DNA of 26,319 bases from a virus: positions 1 to 26,319 of the IMG/VR virus record IMGVR_UViG_3300027898_000343; one strand, 5' to 3'. The notes under the pieces were generated by a model, which was not told the DNA's origin, made no database searches, and saw only the letters and a program-made list of their open reading frames with translations. Of the stretch, positions 1 to 18,149 are shown piece after piece. Position numbers and translations under genes: made by a program. Numbering within the stretch: the first letter of the stretch is position 1; the number at the start of each line of letters is the position of its first letter.

Positions 1-460
1 CATGAGCCGCGCCGCGCAGGTGGCCGGTCATGCCTTTGGAAAACTGATTGCCCGCGTCAACACCGGCCTTGTGCCAGTTAGCGGCTTTGGGCGTTGCCTG
101 CATCGCATGGGCGGAGGCTTTGGCCGCGTTAGAAATGCGCTGTTGGGCCGCCACAATCTGACCCGCCGCGCGGGTTGCGGCTGCAGCCTGATTGGCTTCG
201 GCCTGACCGGCCACCTGCGCGGCGCGGCTCATGTCATCACCGGCCTTGATCGCCGCCTCGCCGGATTTGGCGGTGGCGGTGCTAAGGGCTTCAGTTACTT
301 TGGTCTGGGTTTTGAGCGCCTGGTCAACCTGATGCGAGGCCTTGAGGGCGGTGGTCGTGCGCTTGTCACTGGCCACATCCATAGCGTGCTGGGCTGCGGC
401 AACCTTGTTGGCGGTGGCCGAGAAGCGGTCAACGGCTTCCAGCACAAACTGGAAATTCAT
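1..460 (-). CDS. Tail tape measure protein, N-terminal part (cut by window edge)
   Basis: The frame is open from an ATG at 460 to the window edge, giving 153 codons of an Ala/Lys/Gln-rich helical protein (start MNFQFVLEAVDRFSATANKV, then repeated Ala-rich heptads). This is the usual look of a tape measure N-terminus. A Shine-Dalgarno GGGAGG lies 10 nt upstream. The ATG overlaps the TGA of the frameshifted chaperone extension as ATGA, exactly where a tape measure gene is expected in Mu, P2 and lambda. The tape measure sets tail length and is threaded through the tail tube. The family call rests on position and composition rather than on a catalytic motif. Confidence 0.8.
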   Translation of the reverse strand, partial: MNFQFVLEAVDRFSATANKVAAAQHAMDVASDKRTTTALKASHQVDQALKTQTKVTEALSTATAKSGEAAIKAGDDMSRAAQVAGQAEANQAAAATRAAGQIVAAQQRISNAAKASAHAMQATPKAANWHKAGVDAGNQFSKGMTGHLRGAAH

Positions 461-1019
461 GTCTTGCTCGCCTCCCGGATCGCCTTGGCTTCGGCCTGGT
501 CATATCGATATTGCTGATCAATCCACCAGCCCATTTCGGCCAAGCTCATGGCCATCAATTCGCTATGTCTCCAGCCCCGCCTGATCATGTGGATATGATT
601 CAGCGGGCTGGGCAATATTACTTTCCCGCTGCACCCGCCGGATCATTCTTGGCCTTGCCGCCAAACAGGGTGCCGACGATCTGCAGATGATCCATGGCCG
701 GGATAAACTCGGCATAGTCTTCCAGCGTCAGACGCTCACCGTCAAAGGTGGATACTGCGGTGATGAACGCGGTCTGCACCACATCCTGATTGGAGCCACC
801 AAAACGCTGGGCACGCTGCCATGCGGCATAGGGCACAAATTTGGGCATGGACACTTTGACGCCGGTGACATCCAGCACAAATTCCGTGTCACCCGCAGCG
901 GCGGCTTTGAGCGCGCGCAGCTTGTCCACCACAGTCGGCTTCGCCTCCTGGGTAGCTGCCGACTGATCGGCGGCGGCTGGATCGGCCTGGGCACCGACCA
1001 GAGTATTAAAATCCACCAT
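457..1019 (-). CDS. Tail assembly chaperone, long form made by -1 frameshift
   Basis: If ribosomes slip back one base on GGGAAAG (627-621), the frame bypasses the TAA at 620-618. It then runs for 54 more codons to a TGA at 459-457 that overlaps the tape measure ATG. The product would be about 187 residues. Its extension contains SLAEMGWWIDQQYRYDQAEA, a Trp/Tyr-rich helical tail similar in character to known gpE'/GT extensions. Lambda G/GT, P2 E/E' and Mu gp41 use the same arrangement. The open second frame, the phase of the heptamer and the downstream hairpin are read directly from the sequence; frameshifting itself is inferred. Confidence 0.8.
571..627 (-). promoter_or_regulatory. Programmed -1 frameshift signal: slippery heptamer plus hairpin
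   Basis: The heptamer GGGAAAG (627-621) fits X XXY YYZ in the chaperone's reading frame. Nine bases later a long hairpin begins. Arm CCAGCCCGC (611-603) pairs with GCGGGGCTGG (580-571), and the stem continues inward through CTGAATCAT / ATGATCAG to a six-base loop ATCCAC, about 16 pairs with three single-base bulges. Slippery site, 9-nt spacer and stable stem are the three standard elements of -1 frameshift stimulators. Confidence 0.8.
618..1019 (-). CDS. Tail assembly chaperone, short form (gp41/gpE-like)
   Basis: This 133-residue protein lies between the tail tube and tape measure genes, the fixed place of the tail assembly chaperone in long-tailed phages. It is acidic with a Gln/Ala-rich first 30 residues and a compact domain containing FVLDVTGVKVSMPKFVPYAA. 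Chaperones of this group coat the tape measure before the tube polymerises around it and are not part of the finished virion. The start is ATG at 1019 with a strong GGAGGT 6 nt upstream. The last codons GCG-GGA-AAG before TAA form a slippery heptamer, so a longer product is expected as well (see the entry at 457-1019). Confidence 0.75.
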   Translation of the reverse strand: MVDFNTLVGAQADPAAADQSAATQEAKPTVVDKLRALKAAAAGDTEFVLDVTGVKVSMPKFVPYAAWQRAQRFGGSNQDVVQTAFITAVSTFDGERLTLEDYAEFIPAMDHLQIVGTLFGGKAKNDPAGAAGK

Positions 1020-1085: not shown

Positions 1086-1601
1086 TTAATTCGGCCAGAC
1101 CGGCTGGCCCATGACATTGTTGACCTGACGCATCACGTCGATTTCGCGCAGCGGCGTCGAGGAATTGGACAGGGTTTGCACGAAGCGCAGCGCCGAATAT
1201 TCGGCGTCGCCTTCAAAACTCTCGCCCAGTTTGAACGGCTTGCCGTCGAGTTTGCGGATCAACATCGTGATCATGGTGACCAGCCGGAAACTGTTGGCCG
1301 CATTCAGCCCCGCCGAATCAAACACATCCACATAGGAATTGAGCGAGAAGGTGATTGGCACCGTTGGATTGCACAGACGCGGATACAAATCCGGGTCCAG
1401 AAAATCGATCGTCAGTTTGCCCGTCAGTTCCTTGAGCGTGCGGCCGGGCAAAGAGATGACGGCGATCTGCCCCAGCGTCTCGTGCTTGACCTCCATATAT
1501 TCGACGGCGGGCGGCGAAAAATCCTTGAAGCGGCCCACCAGTGCCGTGCCGTCGAGATAGACATTGGCGTTGGTGATCTGGCCGATTTTGACAGCGTCCA
1601 T
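1086..1601 (-). CDS. Major tail tube protein, P2 FII-like
   Basis: This 171-residue protein follows the sheath gene and should form the inner tube of a contractile tail. The layout matches the P2 FII tube family rather than the shorter Mu gpM: an N-terminal strand region (KIGQITNANVYLDGTALVGR), a charged 'VEYMEVKHETLGQIAVISLPGR' type segment, and a 'LTGKLTIDFLDPDLYPRL' type strand. The start ATG at 1601 is preceded by AAGGAGTTTCAC, a good ribosome site. It is probably translated from the same mRNA as the sheath, 10 nt downstream. Its C-terminus 'GQPVWPN' is followed by a 66-nt gap before the chaperone. Confidence 0.75.
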   Translation of the reverse strand: MDAVKIGQITNANVYLDGTALVGRFKDFSPPAVEYMEVKHETLGQIAVISLPGRTLKELTGKLTIDFLDPDLYPRLCNPTVPITFSLNSYVDVFDSAGLNAANSFRLVTMITMLIRKLDGKPFKLGESFEGDAEYSALRFVQTLSNSSTPLREIDVMRQVNNVMGQPVWPN

Positions 1602-1611
1602 GTGAAACTCC

Positions 1612-2904
1612 TTATGCGGTCAGCAGGCCAAGCGCCGTGTTGACGAAGTTGAGATCGATCGAAGAATCAATCGTGATGCGGTGCAGGATGCCCATGACAG
1701 CGAAGGACAGTTTGTAAAAAACGCGGCCCTCATTGGCGATCTGCCGCGCCGTGTTGCGCTGGCGGTCAAACGCGAAACTGGAGCCATAGAGCCAGCCGTC
1801 GCCGCCCACGCCCTTGGTGGCCAGATAGGCGCGGACATTTTCTTCGACCATGTCAACGACCTGCGGTGAGGCAAAGTCGTCGATATAGGGCAGCGTATAA
1901 AATAGGATCGCATCTTCCAGCACGTCGGCAGTGGCACGGCCATGCAGCCAGGTCATCTGATCAACCACGGTGGGCATAGCGGCAGAATGCGCGCCATAAG
2001 TTTTGATGCCGGAACCGTAATAGGTCATGGCGGTGACGATGCCCGCGCCGTTCAGCAGATCGGTGTCAGAATTATAGGACTGCGGCAGGAAGAAAATATC
2101 CGTCTCGGTTCCGGCGACATCAGGCATGGCCTGATTGGAGGGCGAACGGTGCGGCCCGATCTGGGAGCACAGACGATTCCACACACCGGTAAAATGCTGG
2201 CTGTAAGGCTGCAGGCTGTTGCCGCCGGTCACCGGATCAAGCGCATTGACCTGCGGGAAACAGATGACGGCACGGTTGGAGCCGGTGTTGTAATCACCGC
2301 CAACGCCGCGCGCTTCGATCGCCTGCTGCTTGGTCATGCCGGGCGGCATGTCATAGATGGCATGGCCGCGCACATCATTGGCGACAACCAGCATCTTTTC
2401 GCGCACACCCTGCAGCGTGGTGAAACGCGGCGCGATAATCTTGCGTGGGAAGAAACCAAATCGCGGATAGCAAGCATAGGCCACATTAAATCCTGTGGCA
2501 TTGCCAGAGGCATCAGTGGAACCGACCATGTCAACGGGGCTGACCTGCGTCGGGTCGGGCGCACCGGCAACATTCTTGTGCACATCGGGATCAAAGATAT
2601 TGTTGACCACAATGGTGCCGACGCCCTTGCCATCCGTGTCCTTATTGAACATCGCCGCCAGAGCTTCGGGGATCGAATAACCACCGGCAGTGGCGGCATT
2701 GCCGAACTGGGCGGCGTCGGCAAGAGTGCGCACGACAACCGGCTTGTTGATATAAGCCGCGCGCTTGGCGGGCGTATCATAAAGCTGATGGATCGGCGCG
2801 GTGCCCTGCAGATAGGTAATCGCCGCCTTGACATCGGTGACGCTGGATGTGCCCGTAAAATTCTCGATGACTTCCGGGCCGTGGTGATAGGCTTCTCCCG
2901 ACAT
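1612..2904 (-). CDS. Contractile tail sheath protein, P2 FI-like
   Basis: This 430-residue protein starts with SGEAYHHGPEVIENFTG, the 'YHHG..V.E...G' opening typical of P2-type FI sheath proteins. It is followed by a 'TYLQGTAPIHQLYDTPAKRAAYINKPVVV' region with the 'lNkPvli' motif seen in that family. The C-terminal part (SPQVVDMVEENVRAYLATKG, then GRVFYKLSFAVMGILHRI) matches the conserved sheath domain that wraps the tube. The presence of a sheath makes this a myovirus. ATG at 2904 has AGGAGCACCC upstream. In Mu the sheath is gpL; here the position is the same but the sequence looks P2-like. Confidence 0.9.
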   Translation of the reverse strand: MSGEAYHHGPEVIENFTGTSSVTDVKAAITYLQGTAPIHQLYDTPAKRAAYINKPVVVRTLADAAQFGNAATAGGYSIPEALAAMFNKDTDGKGVGTIVVNNIFDPDVHKNVAGAPDPTQVSPVDMVGSTDASGNATGFNVAYACYPRFGFFPRKIIAPRFTTLQGVREKMLVVANDVRGHAIYDMPPGMTKQQAIEARGVGGDYNTGSNRAVICFPQVNALDPVTGGNSLQPYSQHFTGVWNRLCSQIGPHRSPSNQAMPDVAGTETDIFFLPQSYNSDTDLLNGAGIVTAMTYYGSGIKTYGAHSAAMPTVVDQMTWLHGRATADVLEDAILFYTLPYIDDFASPQVVDMVEENVRAYLATKGVGGDGWLYGSSFAFDRQRNTARQIANEGRVFYKLSFAVMGILHRITIDSSIDLNFVNTALGLLTA

Positions 2905-3198: not shown

Positions 3199-3707
3199 AG
3201 ACGCCTCTCTGACGGGTGTGGCCAGTTGCCACCGACTGCCGGGATTTGGCCCCGGAACATGATTGTGTAAGTCCAGATCAGGCCGTCCTGACTGGTGAGG
3301 CCGTCTTCGACCGGAGCCAGCGGGCTTGATCCTTCGACCTGACGGTTCTGCAAAATGCGCCGGATGGCTTCGACGACATTGGGCGCGCCCGTCTCCCCCT
3401 GGATGCCACGGGCCAGAACCGCAATATCAATATCGAAGCTGCGCTGGAGCATCGCGGCCATGGCATTGGCCTGTCCGGTGTAACGCGAACCGCGATAGTG
3501 GACGATGATCGCGCCGTCATATTCGCCGATGTCAAATTCAGCGATCCTGTCAGGCATAGCCGCCACGCGGAAATTGCCCGGCGCTTCCTGCGTCAGAATT
3601 TCGACCAGGGCCGCAACGATGCGGCCGGGCCATTCTAACGGGCGCGGCGCTTTGGCCGCTTCAAACTGGGCCGCGACGGCAGCACTGGGGGATGAAATAT
3701 TGATCAT
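3195..3707 (-). CDS. Mu gp37-like protein (head-tail joining region)
   Basis: The 170-residue product resembles the Gp37 family of Mu-like phages. It has a helical N-terminus with 'IVAALVEILTQEAPGNFRV', a central 'FDIGEYDGAIIVHYRGSRYT' segment, an 'RSFDIDIAVLARG' strand pair, and a C-terminal 'GLIWTYTIMFRGQIP' strand. Such genes lie between capsid and sheath and are probably tail completion or neck proteins. The start overlaps the upstream gp36-like stop by 4 nt and the end overlaps the next start by 4 nt, so three genes form a coupled set. An alternative, later start cannot be excluded because the first 25 residues are Ala-rich and unremarkable. Confidence 0.75.
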   Translation of the reverse strand: MINISSPSAAVAAQFEAAKAPRPLEWPGRIVAALVEILTQEAPGNFRVAAMPDRIAEFDIGEYDGAIIVHYRGSRYTGQANAMAAMLQRSFDIDIAVLARGIQGETGAPNVVEAIRRILQNRQVEGSSPLAPVEDGLTSQDGLIWTYTIMFRGQIPAVGGNWPHPSERRL

Positions 3708-4174
3708 CGCTGCGCCCCTTCAACCGACAGACGCCAGCCGTCGAGAACTTCCCGTGCTTTCGACGGATGCCCCGCAACGGACACGCGCATTTCGGTGGCG
3801 GCAATATTGTTTGCGCCGGGCTGGTTGGCGTCGATCGCCAGACGGCCGGACTGGATGTCGCGCAACCGGGCGATTGCATCCTCATAGCGCTGGCGCACTT
3901 CGGCATTGACGCCGGACTGGTCACCCGCCTTGTAGCGCAGCCGATAGAAAGCGATGTCAACGCAAAAGCCCTTGAGCAGATCAGGCACCGGCACAATGTC
4001 GGAGGGATAGCGGGCGCGGATATAACCGGTGATCAGATCGCCAGCCCAGGCGACAGCGGCGGCAATCTTGGCCATGTCGAGACGGCGCGCACCGCGCGGG
4101 CCATCGCCCGCCACTGTGTCGGCTTCTTGTGCGCCTATGCGCTCGACAAATTCATCTGCGCTCAAGATGATCAT
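3704..4174 (-). CDS. Mu gp36-like protein (DUF1320), neck/connector
   Basis: The 156-residue product starts MIILSADEFVERIGAQEADT, the opening of the DUF1320 family (Mu gp36). Next come a helical 'AKIAAAVAWAGDLITGYIRARYP' segment and 'VPDLLKGFCVDIAFYRLRYK', the usual DUF1320 helices. The family resembles head-tail connector proteins that extend the portal. I chose ATG 4174. The same frame is open for 23 more codons upstream, but those residues (RAGPAAMRGNPPG...) do not belong to the family and cross the hairpins at 4207-4258. The gene is coupled to the gp37-like gene. Confidence 0.8.
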   Translation of the reverse strand: MIILSADEFVERIGAQEADTVAGDGPRGARRLDMAKIAAAVAWAGDLITGYIRARYPSDIVPVPDLLKGFCVDIAFYRLRYKAGDQSGVNAEVRQRYEDAIARLRDIQSGRLAIDANQPGANNIAATEMRVSVAGHPSKAREVLDGWRLSVEGAQR

Positions 4175-4206
4175 GGACAGGCTCTCTACCCCTTGAAAAA
4201 GTCCCG

Positions 4207-4258
4207 GAGGGTTTCCCCTCATAGCTGCCGGGCCAGCTCGCATTGACCCTGACGGGTC
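4207..4258 (-). other. Two small hairpins between capsid-side and connector genes
   Basis: The 102-nt gap between two structural genes contains two perfect 5-bp stems: GACCC-tgac-GGGTC at 4245-4258 and GAGGG-tttc-CCCTC at 4207-4220. On the minus strand the second is followed, after CGGGAC, by TTTTTC. This may be a weak terminator or attenuator that lowers connector and tail expression relative to the capsid. The T-run is separated from the stem, so the call is tentative. Confidence 0.4.
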
Positions 4259-7845: not shown

Positions 7846-8097
7846 TTATGCAATGCCCAGGGCATTCATATAAAGTTCCAGAATGGCTTCCATTTCCTGA
7901 CGCTCTGCCCGGTCGGTCTTGCGGATAGCGACAACCTGGCGAACGACCTTCACATCGTAGCCACGGCTTTTCATCTCGCCATAGACTTCTTTGATATCGT
8001 CGCTGATGGCTTTCTTCTCTTCCTCAAGGCGCTCCACCCGCTCGACAAACTGTTTGAGTTCGTCGGCGGCAACGCCCGTCTCGGCAATATCTTTCAT
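7846..8097 (-). CDS. gapR: GapR-like nucleoid-associated protein (DUF2312)
   Basis: The 83-residue product is a full-length DUF2312 protein. It has coiled-coil start [15 protein letters not shown], the '[20 protein letters not shown]' segment, the basic '[10 protein letters not shown]' helix and the end '[10 protein letters not shown]', all in the order seen in Caulobacter GapR. In Caulobacter, GapR binds overtwisted DNA and aids gyrase and topoisomerase IV ahead of replication and transcription. Only the short N-terminal tail of the cellular protein is missing. The gene sits inside the head operon, 4 nt overlapped with the MuF-like gene, so it would be made late, with DNA packaging. It is a cargo gene with no counterpart in Mu. 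Confidence 0.92.
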
Positions 8098-9368
8098 GCT
8101 TTACTCCTGCGGTAGAGCAGCGCGCCGCTGCGTTGGTTCTCCAGATAATTGGCCTGCGTCTTGGCGGACTTGCCCGCTTTGGGCGGAAAGGCCGTCACGC
8201 CGCTCCACCCCGCCTTACTCCATTCAAACACGGCATAGCCGCCAGAGGTCGGATCATAGCGCAGATATTTACGCACCAGCCGCTTGCCGCCCTTGGGGTC
8301 AGGCTCCCAGCTGACCCAGATTTCATCAGGGTCTTTGATCGCTTCGGCCAGACGCGGCAGATCAGGGCCGCGTCCCAACTTGTTCGCCTTGGGTGCGCCG
8401 GTGGCTGTGCGAAACATCGAACTGGAAATCACCACAGCATTGTCAGCCTTGTCGCGGAACATCGCGCCCTGATCACGGGTGGCACCGAATTCTTTTAAAA
8501 AGGCATCCTCATAGACCTGCGACGACTTGCCCGCTGGCAGCGCCTTGGCTTTGATCGGCGTGGCAATGTCGCCGATCGGCGTCAGATTGTCCGGGCGCGG
8601 CATGTCGCTGTCTGACGCGGGCAAAGGCTTTTGCAATTCGGCCGGAACCAATCCGCGCTCCCAGGTCTGGCCGGGCGCATAGTCCCAGCCCAGATCACAG
8701 CCGTTGGTCACCTGCACCTTGTCGCCGGTGGCCGGATCAACCTCTTCATGGGTGCCCAGTTCGGGCGCAGGGTCAGGGCCGTCCTTGCCATAGCTTTTCA
8801 GTTCGCGCTTTGAAACCGGATCAACGCCGCAGGTGCACAGCCAGCCGTTCGGCGGATAGATTTTATCCCAGACCGGATCGGTGGCGTCCAGGATCAAACC
8901 GTCCAGCGCCAGATGCGAGGGGCGCGGGCTTTTGGGTTCGCGGGTTTGCCCGTGCACATAACGCCAATAGGGCCGCAGCCGGAGCACATCGGGATCGCGC
9001 ATCTGTTTGTAACGGCCTGCCTGATAAGATGTGCGCAGATTGGTTTCATAGATAATCCGGGCGCGCCAGGCGCGTTGCTTTTCATCGGGCAGCCAACCGT
9101 TCTTCGCCGCAATCGCATCGAACTGTTTCTGGAATTGCTCCAGGGTTTCGCCCTTGGCAATGGCATCATCAACCGCATGGTGCAGGTCGTTCAGCATGTC
9201 TTCCTTGGTAACGCCCGCGACGACAAAGCCCCGGTCATGACCGCCCTTGGTGACATCATTAAAGCCCTTGGTGGGCAGGTTCACCTTCTGGCGGTGATAG
9301 TCGATCGCATCCCCGAATGGCTGGTTGAGCGCGTCAGCAAACCATGCGGCGAATTCAGCCCTGTTCAT
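8094..9368 (-). CDS. MuF-like head protein fused to a PBECR-type nuclease domain
   Basis: The 424-residue product has two parts. Residues about 50-190 are the Mu F / SPP1 gp7 head-morphogenesis domain: '[19 protein letters not shown]' near 102-120, 'RPSHLALDG' near 149, and '[16 protein letters not shown]' near 171-186. Residues about 280-424 resemble the PBECR group of barnase/EndoU/colicin-E5/RelE-like nuclease domains often attached to MuF proteins: '[19 protein letters not shown]', '[10 protein letters not shown]', 'VTAFPP', and the final '[11 protein letters not shown]'. MuF proteins sit near the portal and may enter the cell with the DNA. The domain could thus act on host RNA. Nuclease activity is not proven. 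Confidence 0.85.
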
Positions 9369-10915
9369 TTTGCTTGATCCACAACATCTGCCCGGCCGCG
9401 CAGATCGCTATTGGTCAGAGCCGCGCCCAGCAGCGCCGCGATCTTGGCCGTCGAAAGATTGGGATAGATTTTGAGCAAGGCATTGGGCAGATCGCGCAGC
9501 TCGCCACCCTTGCTAAGGAGGTCATCAATGACGCCGCGAATCACACCAAGCCACTTTTCAAATTCAGGCTGGACGTGGGTTTCCAATGTGTCGATGTCCT
9601 GGTCCAGATCGCCGTCTGCTGAACTGGCGAACTCTGTCGTATCATCGCCCGTGTCATCGCCGGGCGGCGCATCGGCTGGCGGGGTCAGATCGGGAGCCGG
9701 ATCATTGGCCAAAGCAGGCGTCAGATCGGTTTCCATGATCTGTTCCAGTTCAGCCTGTTCGTCGGAGGGCACATAGCCGAGCTTACGTAGCGAGGCGACA
9801 TTGGCCAGATCGGCGGCACGGCGCGCCGCCCGTGCGGCCTTGGCGGTTTCTTCCGCCTGTTCATTGGCCGGACGCTTGAATACCAGATTGGGCGGCTGCC
9901 CGTCAGACGCATTGTAAGCCGTGATCCAGCCAAACAAGGTTTCGCGCAAAGTCGCGGCCAGCATGTTGCCGTCGCCGTCAATCATCTCATCTTCAATGCC
10001 CACATGGGTTGAGGCGGCCGCCTTCGATCCGCCACTGACATTGGTCGATAGATTTTGACCCAACACCGTTTCTGCCGTCTGTTCATCCCAGTAACGGCAC
10101 CAATCCTCATGGGTTAATGTGCCCGACACGGCAGCCGTGGCAAAAGAAATTTCGGTGCCGGTCGGAACCACCAGGGCGCCGTCAACCAATGCCCCGGCAA
10201 TGGCGCGCATCAGTTCGTCCTGCTGGGCAGGCAAAGTGCCGATCGGATATTTGGCCACCGGCAATGGCGTGGCGAAACGCTCAAGCGCTTTCATCCAGAA
10301 GGCCACGCCCTCACGCTTGAACAGCACATGCCAGAACAGCACGCGCCCCAAGCCCCAGCCATAGGGATCGCTGGATAAATCTTCAAACCGGTGGACGATG
10401 AACTTGCGTTCGGGCAGATCAATGCCCCAGGCCAGATTGTCCCATGTCAGCAATTTGGGATTGCGGTCTGCGTCAAAGACAAAGCGGCGCTGATCGTGTT
10501 TGACAATATTGCTGGCCACAATGCCGTCAGAAGTTTTGTCCCAAACCACTTCGCCAACAGCAAAGCCCATCAAGGTGGCGTCCAGCAGTTCCAATGCGAT
10601 GCGCTGCATGTTGAGATTGCGCAATTGCGCTTCAACCAGCTTGGCGGCTTTCTTGTCGATCCGCGCTTCTGACGCCGGTTCAATCGTCCATTCACGGCTG
10701 ATCAGTTTACGCTTGCGCTTTTGCAACACCGAATAGGCACGCCCGTCTTTCAGCACCTCACGATAAAGGGCAATGCCTTTGCCACCGCCGCGATGCAGCA
10801 GGGTTTCATCCTGCGGTCGCAGCACTCGGCTATATAAAGGTATGGTTATGTCGTTGGTCGGATTGGCGATCAGTCCGGGCGGCGGGGCGGTTGGCGGCTT
10901 TTTAATCTCGTTCAT
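9365..10915 (-). CDS. Portal protein, DUF935 family (Mu gp29-like)
   Basis: The 516-residue protein lies between the large terminase and the MuF gene and shows DUF935 features: the start 'NPTNDITIPLYSRVLRPQDE', 'VLQKRKRKLISREWTIEPAS', 'ALELLDATLMGFAVGEVVWD', and 'YGWGLGRVLFWHVLFKREGV', followed by a long acidic, Pro/Asp-rich stretch (about 415-450). The portal dodecamer forms the DNA entry channel and docks the terminase. Start and stop overlap both neighbours by 4 nt. The C-terminal part (from about 460) has helices of the kind found in the Mu gp29 tail and may contact the MuF protein. Confidence 0.92.
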   Translation of the reverse strand: MNEIKKPPTAPPPGLIANPTNDITIPLYSRVLRPQDETLLHRGGGKGIALYREVLKDGRAYSVLQKRKRKLISREWTIEPASEARIDKKAAKLVEAQLRNLNMQRIALELLDATLMGFAVGEVVWDKTSDGIVASNIVKHDQRRFVFDADRNPKLLTWDNLAWGIDLPERKFIVHRFEDLSSDPYGWGLGRVLFWHVLFKREGVAFWMKALERFATPLPVAKYPIGTLPAQQDELMRAIAGALVDGALVVPTGTEISFATAAVSGTLTHEDWCRYWDEQTAETVLGQNLSTNVSGGSKAAASTHVGIEDEMIDGDGNMLAATLRETLFGWITAYNASDGQPPNLVFKRPANEQAEETAKAARAARRAADLANVASLRKLGYVPSDEQAELEQIMETDLTPALANDPAPDLTPPADAPPGDDTGDDTTEFASSADGDLDQDIDTLETHVQPEFEKWLGVIRGVIDDLLSKGGELRDLPNALLKIYPNLSTAKIAALLGAALTNSDLRGRADVVDQAK

Positions 10916-16341: not shown

Positions 16342-16727
16342 GGCTGCACCCGTGGCGGAACATAGTCCGGCCCGCGATCAATCCAGTCACGCAAGGTCGC
16401 AGCGGTTTGGGCGTCGATCCAGTAGCCCAGATAGTTCGTGCTGCAAATGGTGACGCCATATTGTTCCAGCTTGCGGCGCAACTGACAAATGGTGACCTGC
16501 ACAACGGTAATTTGGGCTTCCGATTCTATCGGCCATATCGATTGAAACAATTGTTCGCGGCTCATGGCGCGCGGAGACCGTTGGTATAGGCAGCTCAATA
16601 TCGCCCGTTGCTTGCGTCGTCCCAAGCCCAGGACATGCGGCCATTGGATGTCCGGCGTCAGCTGTTCGCGCAACTGCCGGACTTCCTCTTCCAGTTCCTC
16701 AACACGGTTGCGCAGCGCCTGGCTCAT
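16338..16727 (-). CDS. OmpR/PhoB-type winged-helix regulator with leucine zipper, no receiver
   Basis: The 129-residue product begins with a coiled coil (MSQALRNRVEELEEEVRQLR) and then has a complete OmpR-type winged helix: 'KQRAILSCLYQRSPRAMSRE', 'QLFQSIWP', 'ITVVQVTICQLRRKLEQYGV', 'ICSTNYLGYWID'. The recognition-helix pattern (V.V.I.QLRRKL) and wing (T..LGYWI) are intact. It lacks the phosphorylated receiver domain, so dimerisation probably uses the coiled coil. It is coupled by 4-nt overlaps to the ParB-like and Mor-like genes and may act with Mor on middle or late promoters. Confidence 0.8.
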   Translation of the reverse strand: MSQALRNRVEELEEEVRQLREQLTPDIQWPHVLGLGRRKQRAILSCLYQRSPRAMSREQLFQSIWPIESEAQITVVQVTICQLRRKLEQYGVTICSTNYLGYWIDAQTAATLRDWIDRGPDYVPPRVQP

Positions 16728-17551
16728 GCGGCCCCCCGTTTGCGGACGCGGTTGTAAAGAACTGCGGCAACGGCACGCCAGCGTTGCAACCCTTTGGAAT
16801 AGGCCAACTGGTCAATCTCGTTGTCGAATTCCCAGATGCGCGGCATCAGCCGTTCAACCTTGGCGCGGTCAAAGTCGGCATAATTTTTGTCATGCAGCAG
16901 CAGATCAACGGCCTTGATAAGGCTGGAGGTCAGCGGCGCTTCTTCGGCTTTGGCACAAAGCTGCAGCACTTCGCGGGCATCGCGCGCGGTGCGGCGGGCG
17001 ACCAGTTTGCGCAACGACGCCAGTGCGCAGGTTTCGTTCACGGCATATTCGCCGCTATGAGGCGGACAGCGCGGAATGGTGATGCCAGCGGCCGTGCAAA
17101 CCTGCAGTATGGTTTGTGCATCTTCGTCGCCAGCCACCGCCATGGCATTGAACAACGACAACGGACTCATGGCCACGCGATCGCGGTTGTGACCAATGAA
17201 GGCGTCAGCACGTTGGCCCAATTGATCGGCCTCGATGATCAGCGCCGGGATTTCCGCAATACCGCCGTGCATGAATGCGCCGATTGACGTGTGCTGACCG
17301 TCCACCAGTTCATACCAGCCCGCCTGTTCGCCGGTGAGTTCGGCCACGATTGGCGGCTTGAATTTGCGCCAGTCATAATTCTCGACAATGTTGATGATCA
17401 ACTTTTCCGATTTGCGGTTCAGATCGCGTTGATAATCGTCATTGACCAGCAGCCGATCGACACGCACCCAACCCAGACGCGGCATTTTGGTCGGTATGGT
17501 GTTGGGCTTGAGCGGTCGGTTGACCTTGATTGCGGCAATGGGACGCAGCAT
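16724..17551 (-). CDS. ParB-like N-terminal domain protein
   Basis: The 275-residue product starts MLRPIAAIKVNRPLKPNTIP and contains a ParB/Srx-type core: 'RVDRLLVNDDYQRDLNRKSE', 'ENYDWRKFKPPIVAEL' and 'WYELVDGQHTSIGAFMHG', in which DGQH(R/T) is the ParB nucleotide-binding box. A helical C-terminal half follows (CALASLRKLVARRTARDARE). Such proteins occur in the early or middle regions of many Mu-like phages; role unknown, possibly CTP- or DNA-binding. ATG 17551 lies 1 nt after the previous TGA with AGGAG upstream. The longer open frame to 17719 is shadowed by the previous gene. Confidence 0.78.
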   Translation of the reverse strand: MLRPIAAIKVNRPLKPNTIPTKMPRLGWVRVDRLLVNDDYQRDLNRKSEKLIINIVENYDWRKFKPPIVAELTGEQAGWYELVDGQHTSIGAFMHGGIAEIPALIIEADQLGQRADAFIGHNRDRVAMSPLSLFNAMAVAGDEDAQTILQVCTAAGITIPRCPPHSGEYAVNETCALASLRKLVARRTARDAREVLQLCAKAEEAPLTSSLIKAVDLLLHDKNYADFDRAKVERLMPRIWEFDNEIDQLAYSKGLQRWRAVAAVLYNRVRKRGAA

Positions 17552-17552
17552 G

Positions 17553-18149
17553 TCAGTGCTCCTGTTTAGCGAGTGCGGCGCGAAGCTGTTCGCCCAGACG
17601 GTTGGCAAAAGCATCCAAGTCGCAGGCTGTCGAATTTTTGGGCAAAGAAATTTCTTTAACTCCGACTGATGCCAACCGTCGGGCAATCGCCTCCAGCACG
17701 GCCATTTTGCGCGCCGCACTCGCTAAACCGCGCGGCCAGATCACACCGGCCTCACGGGTCAGCCATTTTTTCAGGGCCTCAATGGCGCGGCGCGCATCCT
17801 CGCTATTCGTCAGAAAGCGGGTATGGCTCACGCCAGTCTGACGCTGCACGAAGGCGATCAGCGCGGCGTCATCGCGATTCTTGACGACGCCCAGATTATG
17901 CCCGGCGATCCACAAAGCCTGCAGCACAGGCGCATAGCGCCCGGCCGCCGTGTTGCTCTTGGTGCGGCCGGTGTTGCCGGTCGAAGCGCGGAGCGTGGCG
18001 ATCAGATGATCCGCCTGGCGGGCGTTCAGATCGCGTGATGAGGCCGCGCCTGTTTCGCGCTTGAGCAGCGCGCGGTAATCATCATCGGACAAGCCGCCCT
18101 TGTTGGTGAGCGTGTGGATGGTTTTGATCTGGGCGTTACTGATCCGCAT
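17553..18149 (-). CDS. Mu gp16-like protein (DUF1018)
   Basis: The 198-residue product has the DUF1018 signature: 'RISNAQIKTIHTLTNKGGLS', 'DDYRALLKRETGAASSRDLN', then 'RYAPVLQALWIAGHNLGVVK', 'DDAALIAFVQRQTGVSHTRF' and 'AIEALKKWLTREAGVIWP'. The family is found in early and middle regions of Mu-like phages and its role is unknown. ATG 18149 with GGGAG is inside the end of the previous gene (14-nt overlap). The C-terminal 45 residues are an additional helical tail. Confidence 0.85.
   Translation of the reverse strand: MRISNAQIKTIHTLTNKGGLSDDDYRALLKRETGAASSRDLNARQADHLIATLRASTGNTGRTKSNTAAGRYAPVLQALWIAGHNLGVVKNRDDAALIAFVQRQTGVSHTRFLTNSEDARRAIEALKKWLTREAGVIWPRGLASAARKMAVLEAIARRLASVGVKEISLPKNSTACDLDAFANRLGEQLRAALAKQEH

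Follow-up and report, generated by a model that had tools for sequence, protein, structure and literature searches.

A phage with a contractile tail very probably uses programmed -1 ribosomal frameshifting to make two forms of a tail assembly chaperone from one gene, the second lengthened by an extension, as judged from the gene and its relatives. The analyzed window is the whole of viral record IMGVR_UViG_3300027898_000343 (26.3 kb; 26,319 nt). It belongs to a Mu-like, transposable phage and carries a Mu-like set of genes (transposase, AAA transposition protein, Gam, Mu-type portal, F protein and Gp36/Gp37) together with a P2-like tail tube and sheath. At the left end of the window, on the minus strand, the sheath gene is followed by the tube gene, a 133-codon ORF and an ORF that starts at 460 and runs off the end of the record. 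The features of this locus are the following:

1612..2904, minus strand: tail sheath (phrog_23, E 7.7e-52)
1086..1601, minus strand: tail tube, FII-like (PF04985, E 3.6e-12)
618..1019, minus strand: 0-frame ORF of the putative tail assembly chaperone (gpE/gpG-like), 133 aa plus TAA, with homologues in Rhizobium phage RR1-B and about 30 viral contigs
621..627, minus strand: putative slippery heptamer G_GGA_AAG, in phase and abutting the stop, conserved in phase and the same as that of lambda
618..620, minus strand: 0-frame stop codon TAA, read from the sequence
612..620, minus strand: 9-nt spacer from heptamer to hairpin, read from the sequence
571..611, minus strand: predicted stimulatory hairpin, 15-16 pairs with internal bulges (folding and synonymous-codon nulls)
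457..621, minus strand: -1 frame extension, 54 codons plus TGA, VILPSPLNHIHMIRRGWRHSELMAMSLAEMGWWIDQQYRYDQAEAKAIREASKT (homologous extension in relatives; phrog_10636, E 2.8e-4)
2..460, minus strand: 5′ part of the presumed tape-measure gene, open at the record end (by position)

The putative chaperone gene thus lies between the tail tube gene and the presumed tape-measure gene. Truncated where the record ends, the latter matches no family convincingly by itself; its identity is presumed from its position and from RR1-B, where the gene at the equivalent position matches tape measure families. Elsewhere on the minus strand of the window, 8097-9368 encodes a head protein similar to Mu F that carries at its C terminus a PBECR2 domain, of the barnase/EndoU/colicin/RelE-like nuclease type (PF18810, E 9.6e-31), and 16727-17719, in the early region of this Mu-like phage, encodes a ParB-like protein (phrog_1033, E 1.6e-14).

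The 133-codon ORF ends with the codons GCG GGA AAG TAA. The heptamer GGGAAAG (627-621) spans the 0-frame codons GGA (626-624) and AAG (623-621), which corresponds to the X_XXY_YYZ phase, and the TAA (620-618) adjoins it directly. From 621, the -1 frame runs through 54 sense codons (621-460) to a TGA (459-457) that overlaps the presumed tape-measure ATG (460-458) in an ATGA. These coordinates of the heptamer, spacer, hairpin, -1 frame and ATGA overlap, proposed earlier by a sequence-only reading, all hold on recomputation. Phased XXXYYYZ heptamers (Y = A/T) are rare, with three per 4118 codons in the main ORFs of the window phage and two per 9022 codons in the sheath genes of relatives, taken as a control. 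By itself, a -1 frame open for 54 codons or more is not rare, being found at 6% of positions. Chance could account for each feature alone but not plausibly for their combination and its conservation, and the earlier argument that the agreement of the parts is unlikely by chance stands. A phased GGGAAAC is also present at 4217, close to the start of the Gp36 gene (3704-4243, minus strand).

Among 50,697 phage records, a single relative of the chaperone was detected, in RR1-B (RHYG_00038; 38.6% over 88 residues, 33-120), and single-protein scans yielded no further relatives. Alignments of the window and RR1-B proteins used as queries retrieved relatives from IMG/VR and from two Rhizobiaceae genomes, and sheath-based scanning gave 35 loci. 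A plasmid search and a direct DNA search returned no relative. Scanning 385 genomes from the class to which the A. vitis genome belongs did not add any relative of the type seen in the window, and a scan with an alignment of the window and its closest relative found (L011, IMG/VR 3300031239_000026; sheath 72%) returned L011 again and nothing else. Four contigs that stop short of the region (L023, L029, L037 and L042) were left out of the cassette count. The search revealed 32 distinct cassettes (from the window, RR1-B, IMG/VR contigs and Rhizobiaceae genomes) in which an in-phase XXXYYYZ heptamer is separated from the 0-frame stop by 0-9 codons and opens into a -1 ORF, 52-64 codons long, that encodes a homologous extension. 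Their heptamers are GGGAAAC (n = 17), GGGAAAG (n = 13, window included), CCCAAAC (n = 1) and CCCTTTG (n = 1). When the relatives were aligned, as the sequence-only reading had suggested, phase was found to be kept in all complete cassettes except L017, the only one devoid of a canonical phased heptamer. Conservation in relatives thus strongly supports the earlier proposal that the tail chaperone gene, upstream of the tape-measure gene, undergoes -1 frameshifting, and it is from this conservation that we infer slippage itself.

The -1 extension is homologous throughout; in 19 members, columns of G, L, M and A residues are invariant. The extension matches phrog_10636, a family listed as of unknown function (E 2.8e-4 for the window), with matches from 6 of the 19 members; phrog_10636 is therefore probably a frameshift extension of a tail chaperone. 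Between close relatives, substitutions in the extension fall mainly at the third codon positions of the -1 frame: those between L003 and L009 are distributed 1/0/13 over the three positions and those between L002 and L005 6/3/15. The latter pair differs by 15 synonymous and four nonsynonymous codons, for an expectation of about 79% nonsynonymous. Codon-level comparison hence indicates that the -1 frame is under purifying selection in relatives.

These data bear on two other explanations of the locus. The extension could be a separate small gene with its own start, for example the TTG at 615, with GGGAAAG acting as a Shine-Dalgarno-like sequence. The window does contain a TTG (615) and an ATG (588) in the extension frame, and the annotation of RR1-B presents the extension as an independent CDS starting at a TTG. 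However, in-frame starts occupy no conserved upstream place in the relatives, and in two of them (L025 and L033) the conserved G-W core is not preceded by any. Furthermore, the heptamer keeps its codon phase in all complete cassettes but one, a constancy not required of a ribosome binding site, and even the exception (L017) retains the -1 relation, at GGGGGAG. Independent initiation was rejected since start codons are not conserved across relatives, and we consider it very unlikely. Alternatively, the change of frame could reflect a plain frameshift mutation or an assembly error in one gene, without any recoding. This explanation has nothing in its favor but the open -1 frame, of a kind found at 6% of positions, whereas the same split occurs at the same place and with the same class of heptamer in about 30 independent contigs, isolates and cellular genomes. 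Mutation or assembly error is already refuted by this conservation, and its probability is negligible. Overall, the third-position bias and the lack of a conserved independent start make fusion by -1 slippage the best reading.

The role of the hairpin is less certain. Located 9 nt after the heptamer (611-571), it has a predicted minimum free energy of -23.7 kcal/mol and 15 pairs (16 in the centroid structure). It is more stable than 198 of 200 dinucleotide shuffles (z -3.0), the two others folding as well. When codons of the -1 frame were replaced by random synonymous ones according to phage-wide usage, the structure of the window gave p = 0.025 (501/20,000); with local usage and two lengths, p ranged from 0.008 to 0.04. 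By itself, the hairpin of the window is therefore suggestive rather than decisive, and its prediction is moderately supported relative to a codon-preserving null. L011 also has a long hairpin, whose loop lies over the same codons as that of the window and which begins 4 nt after the heptamer, compared to 9 nt in the window; four inner pairs coincide, with identical bases. A search of Rfam at gathering thresholds found no family match.

Frameshifting could be real and the hairpin incidental, the heptamer adjoining the stop being sufficient. Several observations fit such a view: among all 54-nt segments on the coding strand of the phage, 2.7% reach at least the same stability; L011 has its outer stem in a different register, thus not shared pair for pair; and four relatives (L015, L018, L019 and L030) show no unusually stable downstream structure. 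Against it stand the departure of the window hairpin from synonymous codon choice and an excess of structure across the family: in 26 loci, the 54-70 nt that follow the heptamer show more structure than expected from the codon null, with Fisher p values (about 1e-4 for 54 nt and 2e-6 for 70 nt) that are too small, since loci that are not fully independent were treated as such and codon usage was estimated. We therefore regard an incidental hairpin as possible but rather unlikely. A stimulatory structure is likely a general feature of these cassettes, and the predicted stem at 611-571 is a plausible stimulator in the window. The hairpin of the sequence-only reading thus survives as a prediction that exceeds the codon null; the compensatory evolution that this reading proposed to look for was not found in the only close relative (L011), with which the conservation of pairs is limited to the four identical inner ones.

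The identity of the 0-frame protein as a chaperone was also examined from its own sequence and predicted structure. It matches no chaperone family in Pfam and PHROG. Its AlphaFold2 model has a confident core (block pLDDT 90-96); fold matches of this model are weak, none with E <= 0.001, and several of them are named tail assembly chaperones. In two relatives, PF23857 (Phage_TAC_19) is matched weakly (best E 0.009).

Frameshifting in tail chaperones has been known since 1993. The cassette of the window belongs to this kind, of which the G/G-T system of lambda and the E/E+E′ system of P2 are examples, as the sequence-only reading had noted; the sites of both phages were located (GGGAAAG and TTTTTTG, respectively). 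Like the window, lambda has its chaperone gene just before the tape-measure gene and a -1 extension that overlaps the start of the latter. Its heptamer is identical (confirmed at lambda 10109-10115), so that the earlier claim that the heptamer is specific to the window phage does not hold, all the more as 13 of the 32 cassettes share it. However, the window phage differs from lambda by its contractile tail, the absence of detected sequence similarity between the chaperones, a stop directly after the heptamer and an extension that is shorter (54 codons) than T (435 bp annotated). The gpG/gpGT system of lambda has been described as widely conserved in long-tailed phages (PMC5009743).

P2 has the gene order FII-E-E′-T and a similar extension length; the order sheath, tube, chaperone, -1 extension and tape measure is common to the window, P2 and RR1-B. 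E′ shares the motif W..SEL..MS..E...W with the extensions of the window family (hhalign E 8e-4, probability 24%), and from this motif the two likely derive from a common ancestor. In contrast, the E part has no detectable similarity to the chaperone of the window, and P2 slips on TTTTTTG instead of GGGAAAG. RHYG_00038 of RR1-B has the same phased GGGAAAG as the window and, in its -1 frame, a clearly homologous extension; it differs by five codons between heptamer and stop, another downstream hairpin and the absence of an ATGA overlap with the tape-measure gene. The -1 extension of RHYG_00038 is RHYG_00039 (L002:6306-6467), which the annotation lists as a hypothetical protein in its own right; this fits the earlier prediction that gene callers miss such extensions. 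L011 resembles the window in having a stop directly after GGGAAAG and an ATGA at the end of the extension.

By analogy with these systems, most ribosomes would read GGA AAG TAA and release the 133-residue chaperone. A minority would slip back by one base on G_GGA_AAG, a sequence reported to be highly shift-prone in Escherichia coli (PMC5009743), the tRNAs of the P and A sites re-pairing to GGG AAA, and would add 54 residues; the downstream hairpin would help this slippage. As proposed from lambda gpG/gpGT and P2 E/E+E′, coating of the tape measure would fall to the short form, and the extension would bring in the tail tube protein. Since the -1 stop overlaps the tape-measure start, slipped ribosomes may be coupled to translation of the tape measure.

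Most relatives carry GGGAAAC rather than GGGAAAG (L012, L013, L018-L022, L024, L030-L032, L035, L036, L038-L041 and L045). Slip sites therefore seem to turn over between AAG and AAC in the A site within this chaperone family, without loss of the extension. The use of AAC at such sites has been described as mammalian-like, not bacterial (PMC5009743). It is conceivable, though we hold it only tentatively, that ribosomes or tRNAs of the hosts of these phages slip efficiently on AAC; if so, the family would lend itself naturally to comparing how the choice of frameshift codon depends on the host. This work also gives phrog_10636 a probable function and allows firm annotation of a chaperone family that, in the window phage, escapes Pfam and PHROGs. 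Overall, it indicates that frameshifting in the tail chaperone is kept, in part on the very heptamer of lambda, by this Mu-like phage, whose tail is contractile, and by its RR1-B-like relatives.
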